Below, one piece after another: positions 24,956 to 33,167 of a stretch of DNA of 50,105 nt. Both the position numbers and the translations under genes were made by a program. The stretch spans positions 31,338-81,442 of the forward strand of contig JAOAHX010000012.1 in the NCBI GenBank assembly GCA_026415035.1, read 5' to 3'. The notes beneath the pieces are model-generated. The model was not told where the DNA came from. It saw nothing but the letters and a program-made list of their open reading frames with translations, and did not search any database. Positions within the stretch are counted from its first letter, which is position 1, and every line of letters starts with the position of its first letter. This DNA comes from Thermodesulfobacteriota bacterium (GTDB lineage Bacteria > Desulfobacterota > BSN033 > UBA1163).

Positions 24956-26106
24956 AGAGGGTCATCACGGGAAATCAGGCCGTGGCCTATGGAGTCATCT
25001 TGAGCCGGGTCGATGTGGTCTCGGCCTATCCCATCACCCCTCAGACGACGATCGTGGAGGAGCTTTCGGAGTTGATCGCAAGCGGCCGCCTCAGGACGAG
25101 GTTTCTCAAGGTGGAGTCCGAACACTCCGCCATGGCCGCCCTCATCGGGGCCTCCACCGGCGGCGTGAGGTGTTTTACGGCTACCTCTTCCCACGGGCTC
25201 GCCTACATGCACGAGATGCTCCACTGGGCCTCAGGGGCCAGGCTCCCCATCGTGATGGTCAACGTGAACCGCGCCATCGGCCCTCCCTGGAACATCTGGG
25301 GAGATCAGAGCGATTCTATCTCCCAGAGGGACACCGGCTGGATCCAGCTCTACTGCGAAAACAATCAGGAGGTCCTCGATACGATCATCCAGGCCTACCG
25401 GATCGCCGAGACCGTGAGGCTTCCCGTGATGGTCGTCCTCGACGCCTTCGTCCTCTCCCACACGGCCGAGCCGGTCGAGGTGCCGAGCATCGAGGAGGTG
25501 GATGCCTTTCTTCCACCCTTCTGTCCCGATTTTCCCATCGACCCTGAGGAGCCGAGGGCCTATTCGGTGATCACCACGCCCGACTATTTCATGGAGTTTC
25601 GATACAAGATCCAGAGGGCCATGGAAGAGGTTCCCCAGGTCATGAGGAAGGTCGACGAGGAGTTCAAATCCCGATTCGGCCGGGGCTATGGCTCGATCGA
25701 ACGATACGGAAGGGAGGGGGCCGAGTTGGTGCTCGTCACCTCAAGCACCGTGACGAGCACCTCGAGGATGGTGGTTCAGAGGCTTGCCGAAGAAGGGATG
25801 AGCGTGGCCGGCCTGAAGGTCAAGAGGTTTCGGCCCTTCCCCGGAGAGGAGATCAGCCAGGCGATCGAGGGCGCAAGGAAGATCGCCGTCATCGACCGTA
25901 ACCTCTCGGCCGGCGTGGGAGGCGTCTTCGCCCAGGAATTGAGGGCCGCCCTCTACTCGAGGGAGGAGAGACCGGTGGTCTTCGGCTTCGTCGCAGGGCT
26001 GGGCGGAAGGGATATCACGCCCGAACGGATCGAGGAGGCGATCCATTACACGAGGGAGCACGATCGGCCCGATGGCGATATCGTGTGGCTCGGTTTGAAA
26101 GGATAG
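24952..26106 (+). CDS. porA: 2-oxoacid:acceptor oxidoreductase, alpha subunit
   Basis: 384 residues starting at MKRVITGNQAVAYGVIL, overlapping the preceding stop by four bases. The N-terminal pyrimidine-binding domain contains DVVSAYPITPQTTIVEEL, and VESEHSAMAALIGASTGGVR carries the Glu/His pair near TPP. The C-terminal transketolase-like part includes VGGVFAQELRAALY. It forms the catalytic core with PorB. Which 2-oxoacid is used cannot be told from sequence alone. The nearby panB/panE-like genes make a branched 2-oxoacid worth considering. Confidence 0.93.
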   Translation: MKRVITGNQAVAYGVILSRVDVVSAYPITPQTTIVEELSELIASGRLRTRFLKVESEHSAMAALIGASTGGVRCFTATSSHGLAYMHEMLHWASGARLPIVMVNVNRAIGPPWNIWGDQSDSISQRDTGWIQLYCENNQEVLDTIIQAYRIAETVRLPVMVVLDAFVLSHTAEPVEVPSIEEVDAFLPPFCPDFPIDPEEPRAYSVITTPDYFMEFRYKIQRAMEEVPQVMRKVDEEFKSRFGRGYGSIERYGREGAELVLVTSSTVTSTSRMVVQRLAEEGMSVAGLKVKRFRPFPGEEISQAIEGARKIAVIDRNLSAGVGGVFAQELRAALYSREERPVVFGFVAGLGGRDITPERIEEAIHYTREHDRPDGDIVWLGLKG

Positions 26107-26146
26107 GTTTTAGTTTTGGATCGATCTAAGGATGGAGGAAGGGAGG

Positions 26147-27025
26147 ATGAAGCGATTCGACATCCCCATCGATGAAAACCTCGGCCACGGACACCTCGCC
26201 TGTGCCGGCTGCGGCGCGGCCGTCGCCATGCGACTCGTCCTGAAGGCCTTGGGCGAGAGGACGGTCATGGTCTTTCCAGCCTCTTGTTGGTCGATCGTCC
26301 CGGGTTTCTGGCCTTACTCTGCCTATAAGATCACCGCGGTCCATGCGGGGTTCGTGACCGCGGCGGCAACCGCCTCGGGCATCCGGGCCGCCCTGGATGT
26401 CAGGGGAGATCGGGAGACCCTGGTCGCGGTCTGGGCCGGAGACGGCGGGACGTTCGATATCGGGCTTCAGGCCCTTTCGGGCGCTGCCGAGAGGAACGAG
26501 GACATCCTCTACATCTGCAACGACAACGAAGGGTATATGAACACGGGGACCCAGCGGAGCTCGGCCACCCCCTTTCTCGCCTGGACCACCACCACCCCGA
26601 CGATGCAACCCAAGGAGAACCCCAAGAAGGACATCATGGCCATCATGGCGGACCATCACATCCCCTATGCTGCAACGGCCACGATCGCCTATCCGGATGA
26701 CCTCATCCGAAAGTTGGAGAAGGCAAAGGCCATCCGGGGCACCCGCTTCATCCACCTCTTCTCGCCTTGCACACCGGGTTGGAAGATCGCCTCAGAAAAC
26801 ACGATCAAGGTTTCGAGGCTTGCCGTCCGATCGAGGGTCTTTCCCCTCTACGAGATCGAAAACGGGAGGGAGTACACCATTCAAGAGGAGTCCCGGGTCG
26901 TGCCCGTCAGGGAGTACCTGAAGCTCCAAGGCCGCTTCAGCCATCTCACCGAGGAGGAGATCGAGACGACCCAGAGGATGGTGGATGAGGCCTGGGAGCG
27001 CCTCCTCCGCAGGGCCCGCTGCTGA
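26147..27025 (+). CDS. porB: 2-oxoacid:acceptor oxidoreductase, beta subunit (TPP-binding)
   Basis: 292 residues from the ATG at 26147, chosen because a GGAGGAAGGGAGG ribosome site lies just before it; an ATG five codons upstream (26132) has none. Iron-sulfur and TPP features: HLACAGCGAAVAMR (two of the cluster Cys), a third Cys in PASCWSI, and the TPP/Mg motif GDGGTFDIGLQALSGAAERN followed by NDNEGYMNTG. A fourth cluster Cys is in SPCTPGW. It binds TPP and passes electrons onward. Last gene of the operon, with a hairpin 54 bases after it. Confidence 0.93.
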   Translation: MKRFDIPIDENLGHGHLACAGCGAAVAMRLVLKALGERTVMVFPASCWSIVPGFWPYSAYKITAVHAGFVTAAATASGIRAALDVRGDRETLVAVWAGDGGTFDIGLQALSGAAERNEDILYICNDNEGYMNTGTQRSSATPFLAWTTTTPTMQPKENPKKDIMAIMADHHIPYAATATIAYPDDLIRKLEKAKAIRGTRFIHLFSPCTPGWKIASENTIKVSRLAVRSRVFPLYEIENGREYTIQEESRVVPVREYLKLQGRFSHLTEEEIETTQRMVDEAWERLLRRARC

Positions 27026-27078
27026 TCCTTCCTCGGAGGACCTGTCGGTGCCCTTTTCTCAACCCATGACGAAGCCAA

Positions 27079-27107
27079 GCTGCCTCCAGGGAGGTGGCAT
27101 TATTTTG
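27079..27107 (+). terminator. Likely terminator of the 2-oxoacid oxidoreductase operon
   Basis: GCTGCCTCC (27079-27087) pairs with GGAGGTGGC (27090-27098) over nine positions including two G-U pairs, followed by ATTATTTT. It ends five bases before the lexA -35 box, so the oxidoreductase and lexA transcripts are probably separate. Confidence 0.45.
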
Positions 27108-27111
27108 GGAC

Positions 27112-27140
27112 TTGACAACTAAACAAATGTATAGTATCAT
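27112..27140 (+). promoter_or_regulatory. lexA promoter with candidate LexA operator in the spacer
   Basis: TTGACA (27112-27117) and TATCAT (27135-27140) are spaced by exactly 17 bases. The spacer, plus the first -10 base, is the imperfect palindrome ACTAAACAAATGTATAGT (27118-27135), in which 7 of 9 positions in each arm are complementary. A dimer bound here would block RNA polymerase, as expected for LexA self-repression. It is not the E. coli CTGT-N8-ACAG box nor the Gram-positive GAAC-N4-GTTC box. That fits the unusual recognition helix of this LexA. Confidence 0.6.
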
Positions 27141-27191
27141 GAGGCGGAAATGTCGATCGATCCCGTCCATCATTCAAAACAGGAGGAGAGG

Positions 27192-27818
27192 ATGGAGCTT
27201 ACGGAGCGGCAGAGGGAAGTCCTCGGTTTCATCCAGGGCTTTATTAGGGAGAGGGGTTATCCGCCCTCGATCCGGGAGATCGGGGAGTATTTCCACATCT
27301 ATCCCAGGGCGGTCTTCGATCACCTGAAGGCCCTGGAGAGGAAGGGCTATCTGAGACGGCAGGGTTCGATGTCGAGGGGGATGGAGCTTCGCATCTTTCA
27401 GGGAGAGAGGCTTCGTGGAAGGGAGGAGAGACCGTCCGTCAGGGAGATTCCCATCTTGGGAAGGGTTGCCGCAGGAAAGCCCACCCTGGCCGTGGAGAAC
27501 GTGGAGGGATCGATTCCCCTGCCCACGGAATGGGTCGAAGGAACGGAGACCTTCCTTCTGAAGGTCAAGGGCGACAGCATGTCGCCCTTCATCCTTCCTG
27601 GCGATTATGTGATCGTTCGCTCCCAGCCCTCGGCCGAAAACGGGGAGGTCGTGGTCACCTTGATGGGCGAGGAGGCGACCGTGAAGCGGTTCTTCAAAAG
27701 GGAGGGAAGAATCGAGCTGAAGCCGGATAACGAGAACTGGGAGACGATCCAGGTGGAGGAGGGTTCCGGAGAGGTCCGGATCGTCGGGAAGGTGATCGGG
27801 GTGTTTCGGAGGATTTAA
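27192..27818 (+). CDS. lexA: LexA repressor (SOS regulator, S24 autoprotease)
   Basis: 208 residues from the ATG at 27192, preceded by AGGAGGAGAGG; the frame extends 14 codons upstream without family similarity. N-terminal winged helix: ELTERQREVLGFI and GYPPSIREIGEYF, then HIYPRAVFDHLKALERKGYL. Autocleavage site Ala94-Gly95 in GRVAAGKPT, nucleophile Ser129 in GDSM and general base Lys165 in ATVKR are all present. The recognition helix has Y-P-R where most LexA proteins have S-P-N, predicting a different operator. It heads a co-directional set with a RecA-like gene, a small gene and a family B polymerase. Confidence 0.94.
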   Translation: MELTERQREVLGFIQGFIRERGYPPSIREIGEYFHIYPRAVFDHLKALERKGYLRRQGSMSRGMELRIFQGERLRGREERPSVREIPILGRVAAGKPTLAVENVEGSIPLPTEWVEGTETFLLKVKGDSMSPFILPGDYVIVRSQPSAENGEVVVTLMGEEATVKRFFKREGRIELKPDNENWETIQVEEGSGEVRIVGKVIGVFRRI

Positions 27819-27875
27819 ATCCCATTCGAAGCGGTGGGTTCGGAGCGGGAGACTTTAAGCGGAGAGAGGAGATTT

Positions 27876-28619
27876 ATGGAGGAAGGGAGATTTGATTTTG
27901 GAAATTTGAAGCTCTATCCGAAGGCGTTCGAGACCTCTTCCGCCCTGTCCGTCCGGGAAGCGGACCGGCTCCGAACGGCCTCCCCCCTGGACGAGATCCT
28001 GGTCCGGTTGACTCCGGAGGCGCTCCTTTCGACGGCAAGAAGAATCCTCTTTCACGGAGAAGGGGCAGGAGGGATCGCCTCCTATGCGGCGGGGTGGATG
28101 GCGGGCAGGGGGATGGAGGTCGTCGTCCTCGACGGCGCCAACCGCTTCGATCCCTATCTCGCCTCCTCCCCTGCCCGAAAGGCCTCGATCTCTCCGGAAG
28201 AGCTCCTCAGGCGGATTCGGATCGCTAGGGCCTTTACCTGCTACCAGATGGCCACGCTGGTGGGAGAACGGCTTTCTGCCTTCCTCAGCGAGGAGGGAGA
28301 CGATGGAGAGGGCAAGAGGCCCTGGGTGATCCTCTTGGGGCCGATTGCGACCTTCCTGGATGAGGATGTGCCGGAGAGGGAGGCCGGGCATCTCTTCGAG
28401 AGGACCCTGAGAAAGGTCGATGGAATGGCTGCAGAGGGGATACCCTTCTTTCTGTTTCAGCCCCCTCTCCCTCCGGGTTCCAGGAGGCTCTCTCTCATGA
28501 GGAGGCTCTTCCAATCTTCCGATCTGATCTGGAGGATTGCCCTGGAGGATGAGGGGCCCAGGATGATCCTGGAGAAGAAGAGAGGAGAGGAGCGAGGCCG
28601 TCTCTCTCGCTCCTTCTGA
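27876..28619 (+). CDS. RecA/RadA-fold protein with inactivated ATP-binding site
   Basis: 247 residues from the ATG at 27876 (GGAGAGAGGAG before it), 57 bases after lexA. The segment HGEGAGGIASYAAGWMAGRG (60-79) sits where RecA-type ATPases carry Walker A, but GKT/S is replaced by G-I-A. The next strand and linker (EVVVLDGANRFDPYLA) and the helix RIRIARAFTCYQMATLV (114-130) resemble RadA/RadB-like proteins. The Walker B-like strand WVILLGPI lacks an acidic end. It thus looks like a non-hydrolysing RecA paralogue, comparable in principle to ImuA/SulA. Its position suggests a polymerase adaptor; that is inference. Confidence 0.65.
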   Translation: MEEGRFDFGNLKLYPKAFETSSALSVREADRLRTASPLDEILVRLTPEALLSTARRILFHGEGAGGIASYAAGWMAGRGMEVVVLDGANRFDPYLASSPARKASISPEELLRRIRIARAFTCYQMATLVGERLSAFLSEEGDDGEGKRPWVILLGPIATFLDEDVPEREAGHLFERTLRKVDGMAAEGIPFFLFQPPLPPGSRRLSLMRRLFQSSDLIWRIALEDEGPRMILEKKRGEERGRLSRSF

Positions 28620-28695
28620 TATCGTTCCTTTAGTCAATCGTCCAAACGAATAGTTCAATTTTCGATATTCGGTTTTCGGATTCAAGGGGTTCACG

Positions 28696-28974
28696 ATGGG
28701 ACGGACCGTTTTGCCTTTCAGCCAGGTCCTGGAGCAGGAGATCCAGCAGTGGCGGAAATTCCGACGGGGCCTGCGCAAGGAGGATCAGCAGTTTCTCGAC
28801 CGCCTCTTCGAGAAGGCGAGGCTCCATGTCCAGGCAGGGGTCTACGCCTCGAGGCCATGGCCGTTTGAGACGATCCTGATCTCCATGCTTTTGGAACACG
28901 AGAAGGCGCTCACGGAGTTGAGGGCGGTCCTCTCCGAACTTCGAACGCATCCGCCCGAGCCCGCTTCTGAGTGA
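28696..28974 (+). CDS. Small conserved 'MGRT' protein between RecA-like and polymerase genes
   Basis: 92 residues, predicted almost entirely helical. It begins MGRTVLPFSQVLEQEIQQW and continues with FRRGLRKEDQQFLDRLFEKA and a PFETILISMLLEHEKAL helix. From memory, the MGRT start plus the R-x-LR-x-ED-x-x-x-x-x-LF and ML-x-EHEK elements match a small uncharacterised family seen in archaea (DUF8156-like in haloarchaea), but I cannot confirm this. It ends four bases before the polymerase start, so it is very likely translated with it. A role as a polymerase subunit is plausible. Confidence 0.7.
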   Translation: MGRTVLPFSQVLEQEIQQWRKFRRGLRKEDQQFLDRLFEKARLHVQAGVYASRPWPFETILISMLLEHEKALTELRAVLSELRTHPPEPASE

Positions 28975-28978
28975 ACCG

Positions 28979-31222
28979 GTGCAACTGCGCGGGTGGCTCT
29001 TCGATCTCTACCCCCTCGGCGCCTCGATGATCCTCTGGATCAAAGGCGAGGAGGGGTCGATGCATCGATTGGAAGATCCCTTCCGGCCCCGATTCTATGC
29101 GCAGGGGAAGAGGAAGGACGCCGTGGCCCTCTTCGACTTCCTCCAGAGACGCCGAGAAGCTACCGGCTACCGATGGGTCAGGAAGAGGGAGTTCTGGAGC
29201 GGAGAGGAGATCGAGGTGATGGAGATCGAGATGGTCGATCCGGAACATTACGCTCACCTTCCGAGGATTCTCTCCCCCTGGGAGGAGAGGCTCACCCTTT
29301 ACAACTGCGACCTCCCTGTCCCGCAAGCCTACCTTTACGAGAAGGGCCTCTTTCCCACAGGCCGATGCCTTGCCGAGGTCGAGGGAGGCCGGATCTTCAA
29401 GATCGAGGCCGACCCGTCGGAATCGTTGTGGACGGACGAGGGAGACCTGCCCGACCTCAGGGCGATGACCCTGAGCCAGGAGGGCTCGGGAAGGGGGAAG
29501 GCGCTCCTGTTGGAGTGCGAGGGATATCGGGTAGAGATGGAGGAGGTGGATCTGGCCGAGCTCGGAAGGTTCCTTCACCGGTTCGATCCCGATGTGGTCC
29601 TGAGCGACGGCGGCGACGGCCTGCTTCTGCCCTTTCTCTTCTCGTTGGAGAGGCGGGCGAAGATCCGCCTTCCCTGGGATCGGGAGCATCGGCTCGTGCC
29701 GAGGCCGGTCGATCCGAAAGGCTACTCCTACTTCTCCTATGGCCGGACCTATTACCGGGCCGCAGGCCACCTCCTCTTCGGAAGGTGGCATATCGATCGC
29801 CGAAACTCCTTCCTCTACGGAGAGTCGGGCCTGGAGGGGGTGATCGAGCTTGCGCGGTTGGGAAGGATTCCGGTTCAACGGATGGCGCGGACCTCTCCGG
29901 GAACGGCCATCACCTCCGTGCAGATGAACCAGGCCTATCAGGAGGGGATCCTCATCCCCTGGAGGAAGGGCGAGCCCGAGAGGTTCAAGACGGCCTTAGA
30001 CCTTCTCGTTTCGGACAAGGGCGGCCTCGTCTTCCAGCCGAAGTTGGGGATCTTCGAAGGGGTGGCCGAGATCGACTTCGCCTCGATGTATCCCACCATC
30101 ATGGCCATCCACAACATCTCTGCGGAGACCGTGCTCTGCCGGTGTTGCGAGAACCGCCAGGTCCCGGAGGCCGGCTACACGATCTGCGAGAGGCGGGAGG
30201 GGATCGTTCCCAAGACCCTCAAGCCGATCCTGGCGAGGAGGGCGTGGCTGAAGGAGAGGATGAAACGTCTCGAAGGAGGTGGCCCCGCAGAGGGGGCAAG
30301 AAAGCGGGAGGTTTACGACCGAAGGCAGACGGCGTTGAAGTGGATGCTGGTCACCTGTTTCGGCTATTTAGGCTACCGGAACGCCCGCTTCGGGAGGATC
30401 GAGGCGCACGAGGCGGTGACGGCCTTCGGCCGGGAGAAGCTCCTTCAGGCGAAGGAGATCTGCGAGGCCGAGGGGTTCGAACTTCTCCACGCCATCACCG
30501 ACTCGCTCTGGATCCGGAAGGAGGGGGTGACCGAAGAGGAGGTCCTCGGCCTCTGCGAAAGGATCAGCGAGGCCACCGGCGTGAGGATGAGCCTGGAGGG
30601 GATCTACCGGTGGATCGCCTTTCTCCCCTCGAAGGTCAACCGGGTAAGCCCTGTGGCCAACCGCTATTTCGGTCTTTTCAAGAACGGGAAGGTGAAGGCG
30701 AGGGGATTGGCCTTCCGGCGGGGCGATACGCCCCCTCTCGTCCAGGAGGCCCAGGCCCGGATGATCGAGCTCCTGAAACATACCGGGGATGTGGGTGAGT
30801 ACCGGTTAAAGATTCCGGAGATTTTAGACCTCTTCCTCGAATATGGCCTCCGCTTGACAGAGGGCCGGGCGAGACAGGAGGATTTGATCATCGCGAAGAG
30901 GATCTCCCGGGAGCCGCAGGCCTACAGGGTGGATAGCCTCACCGCCCTGGCAGCCCAGCAACTGGAGGATACGGGCCTTTCGATCCACCCCGGAGAGAAG
31001 GTGAGGTATGTGATCAAGGAGGCCCTCTCGAAGGACAAGTCGGAGCGGGTGAGGCCCTATCCGCTCGCGGGGCCGGACGACCTTTACGATGTCAAAAAGT
31101 ATCAGGAGATGCTCGCCAAGGCGACCGAGGAGCTCCTCGTCCATTTCGGCTACGATGCGAAGGGGCTTCTCACCCTGCTCGAAGCCAAACCCGCCGGCTT
31201 TGGCCCTGATGGAGTGAATTGA
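28979..31222 (+). CDS. Family B DNA polymerase, PolB2-like, with altered active-site motifs
   Basis: 747 residues from a GTG four bases after the small gene. The N-terminal exonuclease-like domain (~100-300) lacks the DxE of Exo I and has SDGGDGLLLPF in the Exo II place, so proofreading is probably lost. Polymerase motif A is DFASMYPTIM (Asp366). Motif B keeps Lys454 and Gly462, but the usual NS is V-T. Motif C reads H-A-I-T-D-S (504-509), keeping the second Asp (508) but not the first. The KARGLAFRRGD element is present, and a CRCC...C group (~387-403) may bind metal. This pattern fits the PolB2/Dpo2 group linked to damage tolerance in archaea. Location after lexA suggests inducible translesion synthesis. 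Confidence 0.85.
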   Translation: MQLRGWLFDLYPLGASMILWIKGEEGSMHRLEDPFRPRFYAQGKRKDAVALFDFLQRRREATGYRWVRKREFWSGEEIEVMEIEMVDPEHYAHLPRILSPWEERLTLYNCDLPVPQAYLYEKGLFPTGRCLAEVEGGRIFKIEADPSESLWTDEGDLPDLRAMTLSQEGSGRGKALLLECEGYRVEMEEVDLAELGRFLHRFDPDVVLSDGGDGLLLPFLFSLERRAKIRLPWDREHRLVPRPVDPKGYSYFSYGRTYYRAAGHLLFGRWHIDRRNSFLYGESGLEGVIELARLGRIPVQRMARTSPGTAITSVQMNQAYQEGILIPWRKGEPERFKTALDLLVSDKGGLVFQPKLGIFEGVAEIDFASMYPTIMAIHNISAETVLCRCCENRQVPEAGYTICERREGIVPKTLKPILARRAWLKERMKRLEGGGPAEGARKREVYDRRQTALKWMLVTCFGYLGYRNARFGRIEAHEAVTAFGREKLLQAKEICEAEGFELLHAITDSLWIRKEGVTEEEVLGLCERISEATGVRMSLEGIYRWIAFLPSKVNRVSPVANRYFGLFKNGKVKARGLAFRRGDTPPLVQEAQARMIELLKHTGDVGEYRLKIPEILDLFLEYGLRLTEGRARQEDLIIAKRISREPQAYRVDSLTALAAQQLEDTGLSIHPGEKVRYVIKEALSKDKSERVRPYPLAGPDDLYDVKKYQEMLAKATEELLVHFGYDAKGLLTLLEAKPAGFGPDGVN

Positions 31223-31295
31223 CATCTCCCGTTTTTGTGCTATTTTTAAACAGAGGGTGGTTCGAGACCTGTCCATACGGTCCTGGAGGTTTGCC

Positions 31296-31481
31296 ATGAA
31301 CAAAGAGGAACGGCTGAAGGAATTGAGAGCGAAACTGGAGGAGTTGAGGAAGAGGGATCCCTCCCACTGCTCCGGCACGGAGACCTTCATCGGCCACACC
31401 GGGCATTCGATGTCTCCGGAGCTCTTTCAGCAGATCGAGGCCCTGGAGGAAGAGATCAAGAAGTTGGAGAAGGGATCCTGA
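31296..31481 (+). CDS. Small coiled-coil protein of unknown function
   Basis: 61 residues from the ATG at 31296 with GGAGGT six bases before it. Two charged helices (KEERLKELRAKLEELRKR and FQQIEALEEEIKKLEKGS) flank a conserved-looking centre, CSGTETFIGHTGHSMSPE, containing Cys, two His and several polar residues. The helices would pair as a hairpin or dimeric coiled coil. I do not recognise the family. It lies 73 bases after the polymerase gene and may or may not belong to that transcript. Confidence 0.65.
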   Translation: MNKEERLKELRAKLEELRKRDPSHCSGTETFIGHTGHSMSPELFQQIEALEEEIKKLEKGS

Positions 31482-31607
31482 TCTTCCTACCGGGTCGGTT
31501 CCTCGCCTCTTCCCAATTCCATTTTTTGCATTTCAGCGGAATGCCCCGCCTCGTTCTCTACCCTCTTTTAAGAGAGGGGTGGTGACCGTTTTTTATCTCA
31601 TGAGGCC

Positions 31608-33167
31608 ATGAATCCCCTCGACCTCCTCTTCATCCATGTCCCGAAGTTTTCCAATTATTATAAGCCCTTTGGCGAGTATATGACCGTCAACCTCATCCCC
31701 ATGGGGACCTTCGGACTGGCCGATCTCCTCCATCGAGAAGGATACCGGACCGAGATTCTCCACCTCGGCCTGGAGTGGATCGAGAGGAGAAGCTTTTCAC
31801 CCCTTCCTTTCCTAAAAGACAAGAGAGCAGAGGCCGTTGCCCTTCCGCTCCATTTCCATTCCCAGGCCTATGAGGTGATAAGGGTTGCAGGGGAATTGAA
31901 ACAGGATCGGCCCGAGACCTTCGTCCTCCTGGGAGGATACACCGCGAGCTACTTTCACCAGGAGATCCTCGCCCACTTTCCCCAGGTCGATGCGGTCATC
32001 CGCGGGGATGCCGAGCTTCCCCTCCTCCAACTTCTCAAGGCCAGGAAGGAGAGGAGAGGGTTCGAAGAGATTCCGAACCTGACCTATCGCGAGGGAGGGA
32101 AGATCAGGGTCAATCCCCTTACCTACGTCGCCTCCGAAAAGGATCTCGATCGGCTCTCCTTCACCAACCTCTCCCTGCTTCACGATCGCCAGACCTATCT
32201 CCGCTATATGGGCCTCCCTTTCGTCTGGGCGAAGAAGCTGACAAAAGAGGAGAACAGGAGACGCTTCCACCTCGGATATTCTGTCTTCCCCCTCAATATC
32301 GGCAGGGGGTGCCCTGGCAACTGCACCTGGTGCGGCGGAGGGGGCCTTGCCCAGCAGCTTGTCAATGGAAGGAGGGGGGTGAGCTTCCGCTCTCCTGAAT
32401 CGGTCGCTCAAAGCGTGGCAGAGGCCCTTGAAATGGGATACGAGATGGTCCACATCGCCTTCGATCCCGGACCCGAAGGGGAGCGGTATTATCGGGAGCT
32501 CTTCCCGATCCTCAGAGATCGAAACCTTCGCACGAGGGTCTATTTCGAGGCCTTCTCTCTTCCTTCGGAGAATTTTCTTGAGGACTTCGGCCGGACGTTC
32601 GTCCTCGAAGGTTCCACCCTCGCCCTCTCCCCGGAGTCTGGGGTCGAGCGAATCAGGAACAGGAACAAGACCTTCTCCTATTCCAATGACGCCCTGATGA
32701 GGACGATCTCTGCGGCGGAACGGCTGGGGATTCGGGTCGATCTCTTCTTCTCCCTGGGCATCCCGGGAGAACGATACGAGGATTTGGCCGCGACAGCCTC
32801 CCTCCGGAGAGAGATCAAACGGAGGTTCAAGAGGGTCGGAAGGATCTGGTCAGGTCCCATCTCGCTCGAGCCGGCCTCTCCATGGCATCTCCATCCCGAG
32901 GCCTTCGGGATCGTCTCCACGAGGAGGACCTTTTTAGATTTTTATGAGGCCAGTTCACCCGAAGGAGGGGGGCTGGGTTACTTCATCCCTGATTATCGAA
33001 CAGGAGGGAACGATTTGGACGAGAAAGGTTTCGGGAAACTCCTGGGGGAGGCAAAGTGCAGGGACTTCTGTTCCCTCCATCCCGATCCGACCCGGGCGAG
33101 CCATCCCTTCTGGGGGAGGCTCTTCTGCCGATATCTGAGCTGGAGAATGAAGGGCAGAGATGGATGA
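31608..33167 (+). CDS. B12-binding radical SAM enzyme, paralogue 2
   Basis: 519 residues. The N-terminus LLFIHVPKFSNYYKPFGEY and the cobalamin-like domain, the cluster motif CPGNCTWCGGGG (CxxxCxxC), ALSPESGVERIRN and the end KCRDFCSLHPDPT plus PFWGRLFC all align with the paralogue at 5399-7000. It overlaps the next gene (homocitrate synthase-like) by eight bases, so it heads the LuxCE-containing operon. Such enzymes typically add methyl groups to, or rearrange, unreactive carbons. Its substrate is probably an intermediate of that pathway (inference). Confidence 0.88.
   Translation: MNPLDLLFIHVPKFSNYYKPFGEYMTVNLIPMGTFGLADLLHREGYRTEILHLGLEWIERRSFSPLPFLKDKRAEAVALPLHFHSQAYEVIRVAGELKQDRPETFVLLGGYTASYFHQEILAHFPQVDAVIRGDAELPLLQLLKARKERRGFEEIPNLTYREGGKIRVNPLTYVASEKDLDRLSFTNLSLLHDRQTYLRYMGLPFVWAKKLTKEENRRRFHLGYSVFPLNIGRGCPGNCTWCGGGGLAQQLVNGRRGVSFRSPESVAQSVAEALEMGYEMVHIAFDPGPEGERYYRELFPILRDRNLRTRVYFEAFSLPSENFLEDFGRTFVLEGSTLALSPESGVERIRNRNKTFSYSNDALMRTISAAERLGIRVDLFFSLGIPGERYEDLAATASLRREIKRRFKRVGRIWSGPISLEPASPWHLHPEAFGIVSTRRTFLDFYEASSPEGGGLGYFIPDYRTGGNDLDEKGFGKLLGEAKCRDFCSLHPDPTRASHPFWGRLFCRYLSWRMKGRDG

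Follow-up and report, generated by a model that had tools for sequence, protein, structure and literature searches.

In the accounts covered here, Makarova, Krupovic and Koonin (2014) linked the family B DNA polymerase PolB2 to an inactivated RadA and to the arCOG07300 family, with lexA joining them in some bacteria, and cited the four genes LFML04_0990-0993 of Leptospirillum ferriphilum as an example (PMC4104785). Timinskas et al. (2025) renamed arCOG07300 PPB2 and modelled a 'PolB2 mutasome' composed of PolB2, the inactive RadA (iRadA) and three copies of PPB2, describing an MGRT arm, a D(K/R) motif and, in some members, beta-clamp motifs, as well as an enrichment of lexA near bacterial polB2 (PMC11791011). 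Archaeal Dpo2 is damage-induced, as the initial annotation of the present DNA also stated, and is required for targeted mutagenesis (PMC7390963, PMC11791011). It extends mismatches without exonuclease activity, the Sulfolobus enzyme is an active polymerase with the same kind of DxD change as reported below, and the authors suggest that the bacterial clade may be extenders (PMC8764526). Here we describe a cassette of lexA, iRadA, PPB2 and polB2 in a 50,105-nucleotide stretch (the window; G000:C12:31338-81442) of a Thermodesulfobacteriota assembly of 3.06 Mb and 97 % completeness. The cassette is a well-formed example of this already published system rather than a new one, and very probably constitutes a LexA-controlled bacterial PolB2 mutasome operon, with LexA binding, damage induction, complex formation and extender activity all being predicted.

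The L. ferriphilum locus likewise unites these four gene families in a single predicted operon but belongs to another organism, and the operator described below pertains to the present deltaproteobacterial-type assembly and is not found in the covered part of PMC4104785. With the PolB2 mutasome, as far as it is covered here (PMC11791011), the locus shares the order iRadA-PPB2-PolB2, the MGRT and D(K/R) motifs, the altered DxD, the lost exonuclease and the dead Walker A, whereas no clear clamp-binding motif was seen by eye in the present proteins. Sulfolobus Dpo2, in the covered literature, is alike in orthologous group, replacement of the first DxD Asp and a link to DNA damage (PMC7390963, PMC8764526), but is archaeal and operates without LexA. 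The imuA-imuB-dnaE2 and umuDC cassettes also pair a LexA-linked polymerase with a RecA/SulA-type partner; their polymerase families are, however, unrelated, and the present cassette is not a member. The LexA SOS regulon shares the LexA repressor residues and an operator overlapping the promoter, although no such operator site was found at recA in the present genome. Compared with the published accounts as covered, what is added here is the operator, its uniqueness within the genome, its use by a phage-like element, the joint loss of three genes in a sister genome and the lack of any other translesion polymerase.

The four open reading frames lie on the forward strand in the order lexA, iRadA, PPB2 and polB2 (27192-31222), with intergenic gaps of 57, 76 and 4 bases, in agreement with the initial annotation. 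Upstream, 2-oxoacid oxidoreductase-type genes end in a terminator-like hairpin (27079-27098, forward strand), followed by a sigma-70-type promoter on the same strand (27112-27140) in which TTGACA (27112-27117) and TATCAT (27135-27140) are separated by a 17-nt spacer and match at 11 of 12 positions. The predicted LexA-type operator ACTAAACAAATGTATAGT fills the gap between the two hexamers (27118-27135, forward strand); 14 of its 18 positions pair, and the number of chance matches to its sequence expected in the window is 0. The earlier proposal of one promoter with a LexA-type dyad was thus confirmed, this being the only sigma-70-like site ahead of the polB2 end. From 27140 to 31219 no promoter-like site was found, the lexA-iRadA gap showed no sign of a terminator, and an Rfam scan of 26000-32000 returned no match. 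The next promoter-like site (31219-31246, forward strand) lies at the polB2 end, likely serves the following small gene and probably marks the end of the cassette's own control. Given one promoter-like site upstream and the next only at 31219-31246, the arrangement fits a single transcription unit from lexA to polB2. Directly behind the cassette, a small protein (MNKEERLKEL...GHTGHSMSPE; 31296-31481; L150:3548-3874) is conserved in the genus and retained even where the mutasome has been lost; no family match exceeded the cut-offs.

The operator is conserved across the family. TTGACANCTAWACANATGTATAGTAT is present exactly once in every same-family locus that reaches far enough upstream, and the lexA-polB2 operons of these loci carry an identical operator except for one base in L037. 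The distance from operator to lexA varies among species and the flanks differ; TTGACA is conserved in the family loci. A search of the genus member G395 gave no match. The distant relatives L049, L052, L055, L061 and L092 display related dyads around ATAC-N4-GTAT at the same promoter position. From position, symmetry and autoregulatory logic, we infer that LexA is the protein binding the dyad. In the source genome the operator is itself the single match with fewer than two mismatches. A wider LexA regulon was considered and rejected, as sites within two mismatches were rarer than in the reversed control (17 versus 54 per strand); 15 of the 16 weaker sites were inspected and were mostly intragenic with no SOS-type gene behind any, and for both reasons these sites were treated as chance matches. 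The recA locus (3.96 kb including about 1.5 kb upstream) contained no operator site within six mismatches. The sister genome G396 (L138) carries a second exact copy of the operator, without lexA (L174:3345, G396:C12), some 23 bp ahead of a ParB-like gene. The surrounding stretch is phage-like, with a phage-repressor-like helix-turn-helix protein and, more weakly, matches of replication and endolysin type close by. A chance 18-mer match is very unlikely here, and this supports a trans-acting operator that is also used by a mobile element.

PolB2 homologues were collected by polymerase similarity alone, and their neighbours were searched with profiles built for this analysis. iRadA and PPB2 adjoined polB2 in all 35 bacterial loci that extend 1.9 kb or more upstream. 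lexA was linked in 14 of the 33 bacterial loci extending 3.3 kb or more, comprising all 13 of deltaproteobacterial type and one from Poribacteria. The co-occurrence test suggested in the initial annotation, for the trio with or without lexA, was thus positive. The sister genome G192 (L150, G192:C68) retains lexA with its operator and the neighbouring genes in intact synteny, but of the trio only a truncated iRadA, missing its 3' part, is left. Such joint loss of the trio is expected of a functional unit.

Several observations weigh against the proposed operon. Linkage to lexA was seen in 0/19 loci from Ignavibacteria, Bacteroidota, Chlorobi and Acidobacteria, and as lexA was unlinked in 19 of the 33 bacterial loci overall, linkage-based control by LexA is not a general feature. 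In G064, lexA and polB2 are together but PPB2-iRadA lies about 5.6 kb away on the opposite strand; in G142 about 10 kb separates the cassette genes, and in G047 they are split over different contigs. By-eye inspection of the iRadA and PolB2 C-termini revealed no clear beta-clamp motif and no QLxLF, iRadA ending in RGRLSRSF. A different layout occurs in G247 (L154, G247:C108), where polB2 is divergent from lexA-iRadA-PPB2, and the trio is present in the genome in all four exceptions (G064, G142, G047 and G247). The divergent gap of L154 contains a strong palindrome, TATGTATGTTAGCATACATA, and its layout differs from the single bacterial order in the literature.

The lexA product (208 residues; 27192-27818, forward strand; AGGAGG at 27181-27186) passes TIGR00498 with 201 bits against a cut-off of 111 and matches PF01726 and PF00717. 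It contains the helix-turn-helix and the S24 protease residues, namely the Ala-Gly cleavage site (VAAG), Ser (GDSM) and Lys (TVKRF), and is the only copy in the genome. iRadA (247 residues; 27876-28619, forward strand; alternative in-frame GTG at 27834) had no match in a Pfam search, and because sequence searches against Pfam and PDB gave just weak RadA matches (E 0.1), its structure was modelled. The AlphaFold2 model, built from an alignment with 48 relatives, had a mean predicted local distance difference test score (pLDDT) of 83.7 and a predicted template modelling score (pTM) of 0.79, and the best solved structures in Foldseek were RadA, Rad51 and DMC1 (E about 6e-10). The Walker A motif of RadA is GExGSGKTQ; the corresponding GEGAGGIAS of iRadA has lost the catalytic Lys and Thr, and by this comparison the second cassette protein is a RadA homologue with a dead ATPase site, as the initial annotation's RecA-fold protein with a lost Walker A had anticipated. 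Its 92-residue MGRT protein is PPB2 (arCOG07300 type; 28696-28974, forward strand), which likewise had no Pfam match but aligns with polB2-adjacent homologues of bacteria and archaea. All 59 sequences aligned share the N-terminal MGR and differ in the residue that follows (MGRT, MGRS, MGRN). The PPB2 model is helical, and its top PDB match, the SigE N-terminal domain, is non-significant alone (E 4.3); the covered part of PMC11791011 names the same fold resemblance. In L036-L046 the C-terminal tails of iRadA and PPB2 diverge wildly among close relatives and resemble dispersed repeats in translation, such as PCLPAGRRAPAFAEAASRRQ in L037.

The polymerase (747 residues, GTG start; 28979-31222, forward strand) passes PF00136 with 114 bits, and its best NCBIfam match is the archaeal-type PRK05761 (411 bits, under the equivalog cut-off of 516). 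The active-site pattern identifies it as PolB2-type, in line with the initial annotation: among 88 aligned PolB2 sequences, the first DxD position is Asp in 0/88, whilst the second DxD Asp and the motif A Asp are each present in 88/88. In the window protein these positions correspond to motif C Ile506-Thr-Asp508 (30494-30502) and Asp366 of motif A (30074-30076), all on the forward strand as is the D(K/R) motif D273-R274 (29795-29800), whose Asp also occurs in 88/88 sequences. Exonuclease residues have decayed relative to the P. abyssi polymerase alignment (DIE to DPS, NGDNF to GGDGL), and these motif positions are variable across the PolB2 family. The window polymerase groups within the bacterial PolB2 set, with archaeal PolB2 (Sulfolobus left out of the comparison) mostly 31-36 % identical to it. 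It also carries the CxCC motif of bacterial-type PolB2 (Cys387, 389 and 390; 30137-30148, forward strand). As CxCC...C, between motif A and the fingers, this motif is found in 70/70 bacterial PolB2 and two archaeal ones (L090 Undinarchaeales, L100) and is absent from 18 of Methanoregula/Archaeoglobus type; it is possibly a metal site. In-frame inserts of up to about 147 residues occur at two fixed loops of bacterial PolB2, the tip of the fingers and the CxCC loop (roughly residues 428-445 and 391-395 of the window protein, respectively), among L036-L058, L062, L088 and L092 (e.g. L041:5964-6150, L052:7186-7357, L092:5235-6060). The insert DNA has matches among dispersed repeats of other loci and in intergenic DNA, and several Desulfobacca-type contigs end at the second insert spot.

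The source genome encodes one RecA and one DnaE, and no Y-family match (PF00817) or further family B polymerase was found in it. On these counts PolB2 is, at 97 % completeness, its sole recognizable translesion polymerase. Replacement of Y-family enzymes by PolB2 across the phylum was rejected: Y-family polymerases were missing from 17/50 PolB2 genomes versus 84/345 others (Fisher p = 0.17), indicating that the two are not mutually exclusive. The 50 genomes leave out eight weak B-family matches (E 1e-38 to 1e-44, polymerase half only), which are probably other B-family polymerases.

That a classical SOS cassette, imuA-imuB-dnaE2 or umuDC, had been misread is refuted by the sequence and has practically no chance of being correct; the layout is similar, with lexA first, then a small RecA-like protein and a polymerase last, but that polymerase is of family B in a genome with a single DnaE and no Y-family match. 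It is distinctly improbable that PolB2 is catalytically dead with a structural or regulatory role, as first proposed for the family. Such a role would account for the lost exonuclease residues and for the Ile at the first DxD position, which is hydrophobic in nearly all relatives. Selection for catalysis would nevertheless be expected to preserve two Asp residues that all 88 sequences retain, one in motif A and the other second in DxD, and the covered account of Sulfolobus Dpo2 describes an active polymerase with the same kind of change (PMC8764526).

The operator might instead serve LexA autoregulation only, with iRadA, PPB2 and PolB2 separately transcribed and always on. G192, which keeps lexA and its operator alone, is consistent with this, and the iRadA start 57 bp behind lexA makes an internal promoter possible. 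We consider this unlikely, as the region from 27140 to 31219 is free of promoter-like sites and the lexA-iRadA gap of terminator-like sites, the tight same-strand order is retained across the family, and the linkage of lexA to the trio recurs in Poribacteria and, in the covered part of PMC4104785, in Leptospirillum. Co-occurrence, the conserved operator and the published accounts as covered (PMC11791011, PMC4104785) all support the initial annotation's proposal of a mutasome built on a B-family enzyme, in which the two proteins between LexA and the polymerase serve as subunits. Its analogy to low-fidelity polymerases needs correcting, as the biochemistry of the archaeal relative in the covered part of PMC8764526 suggests a mismatch extender without proofreading rather than an enzyme of generally low fidelity.

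In the LexA-controlled mutasome operon, LexA would bind the dyad between -35 and -10 and block its own gene together with iRadA, PPB2 and PolB2. Upon DNA damage, RecA filaments would induce LexA to cleave itself, allowing expression of the entire operon. PolB2, which lacks a functional proofreading domain and whose polymerase site is altered yet presumably usable, would be joined by iRadA, bound like a RadA-filament neighbour, and by a PPB2 trimer whose MGRT arm may reach near the PolB2 active site. The complex would extend primer ends beyond lesions, providing damage tolerance and mutagenesis. A more tentative and rather doubtful extension is that LexA has become an almost private switch in this lineage, with one strong operator for its own operon and recA outside its reach, such that the SOS response would consist of turning on one mutasome containing the sole translesion polymerase.

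In the literature covered, bacterial PolB2 mutasomes are known from genomes and models alone. This family offers a compact test case: its conserved operator predicts control by LexA, the source genome has no Y-family polymerase behind which a phenotype could be hidden, and the sister genome G192 retains lexA but not the trio. It would thereby enable a direct test of the claim that a B-family mutasome carries out SOS mutagenesis in bacteria.

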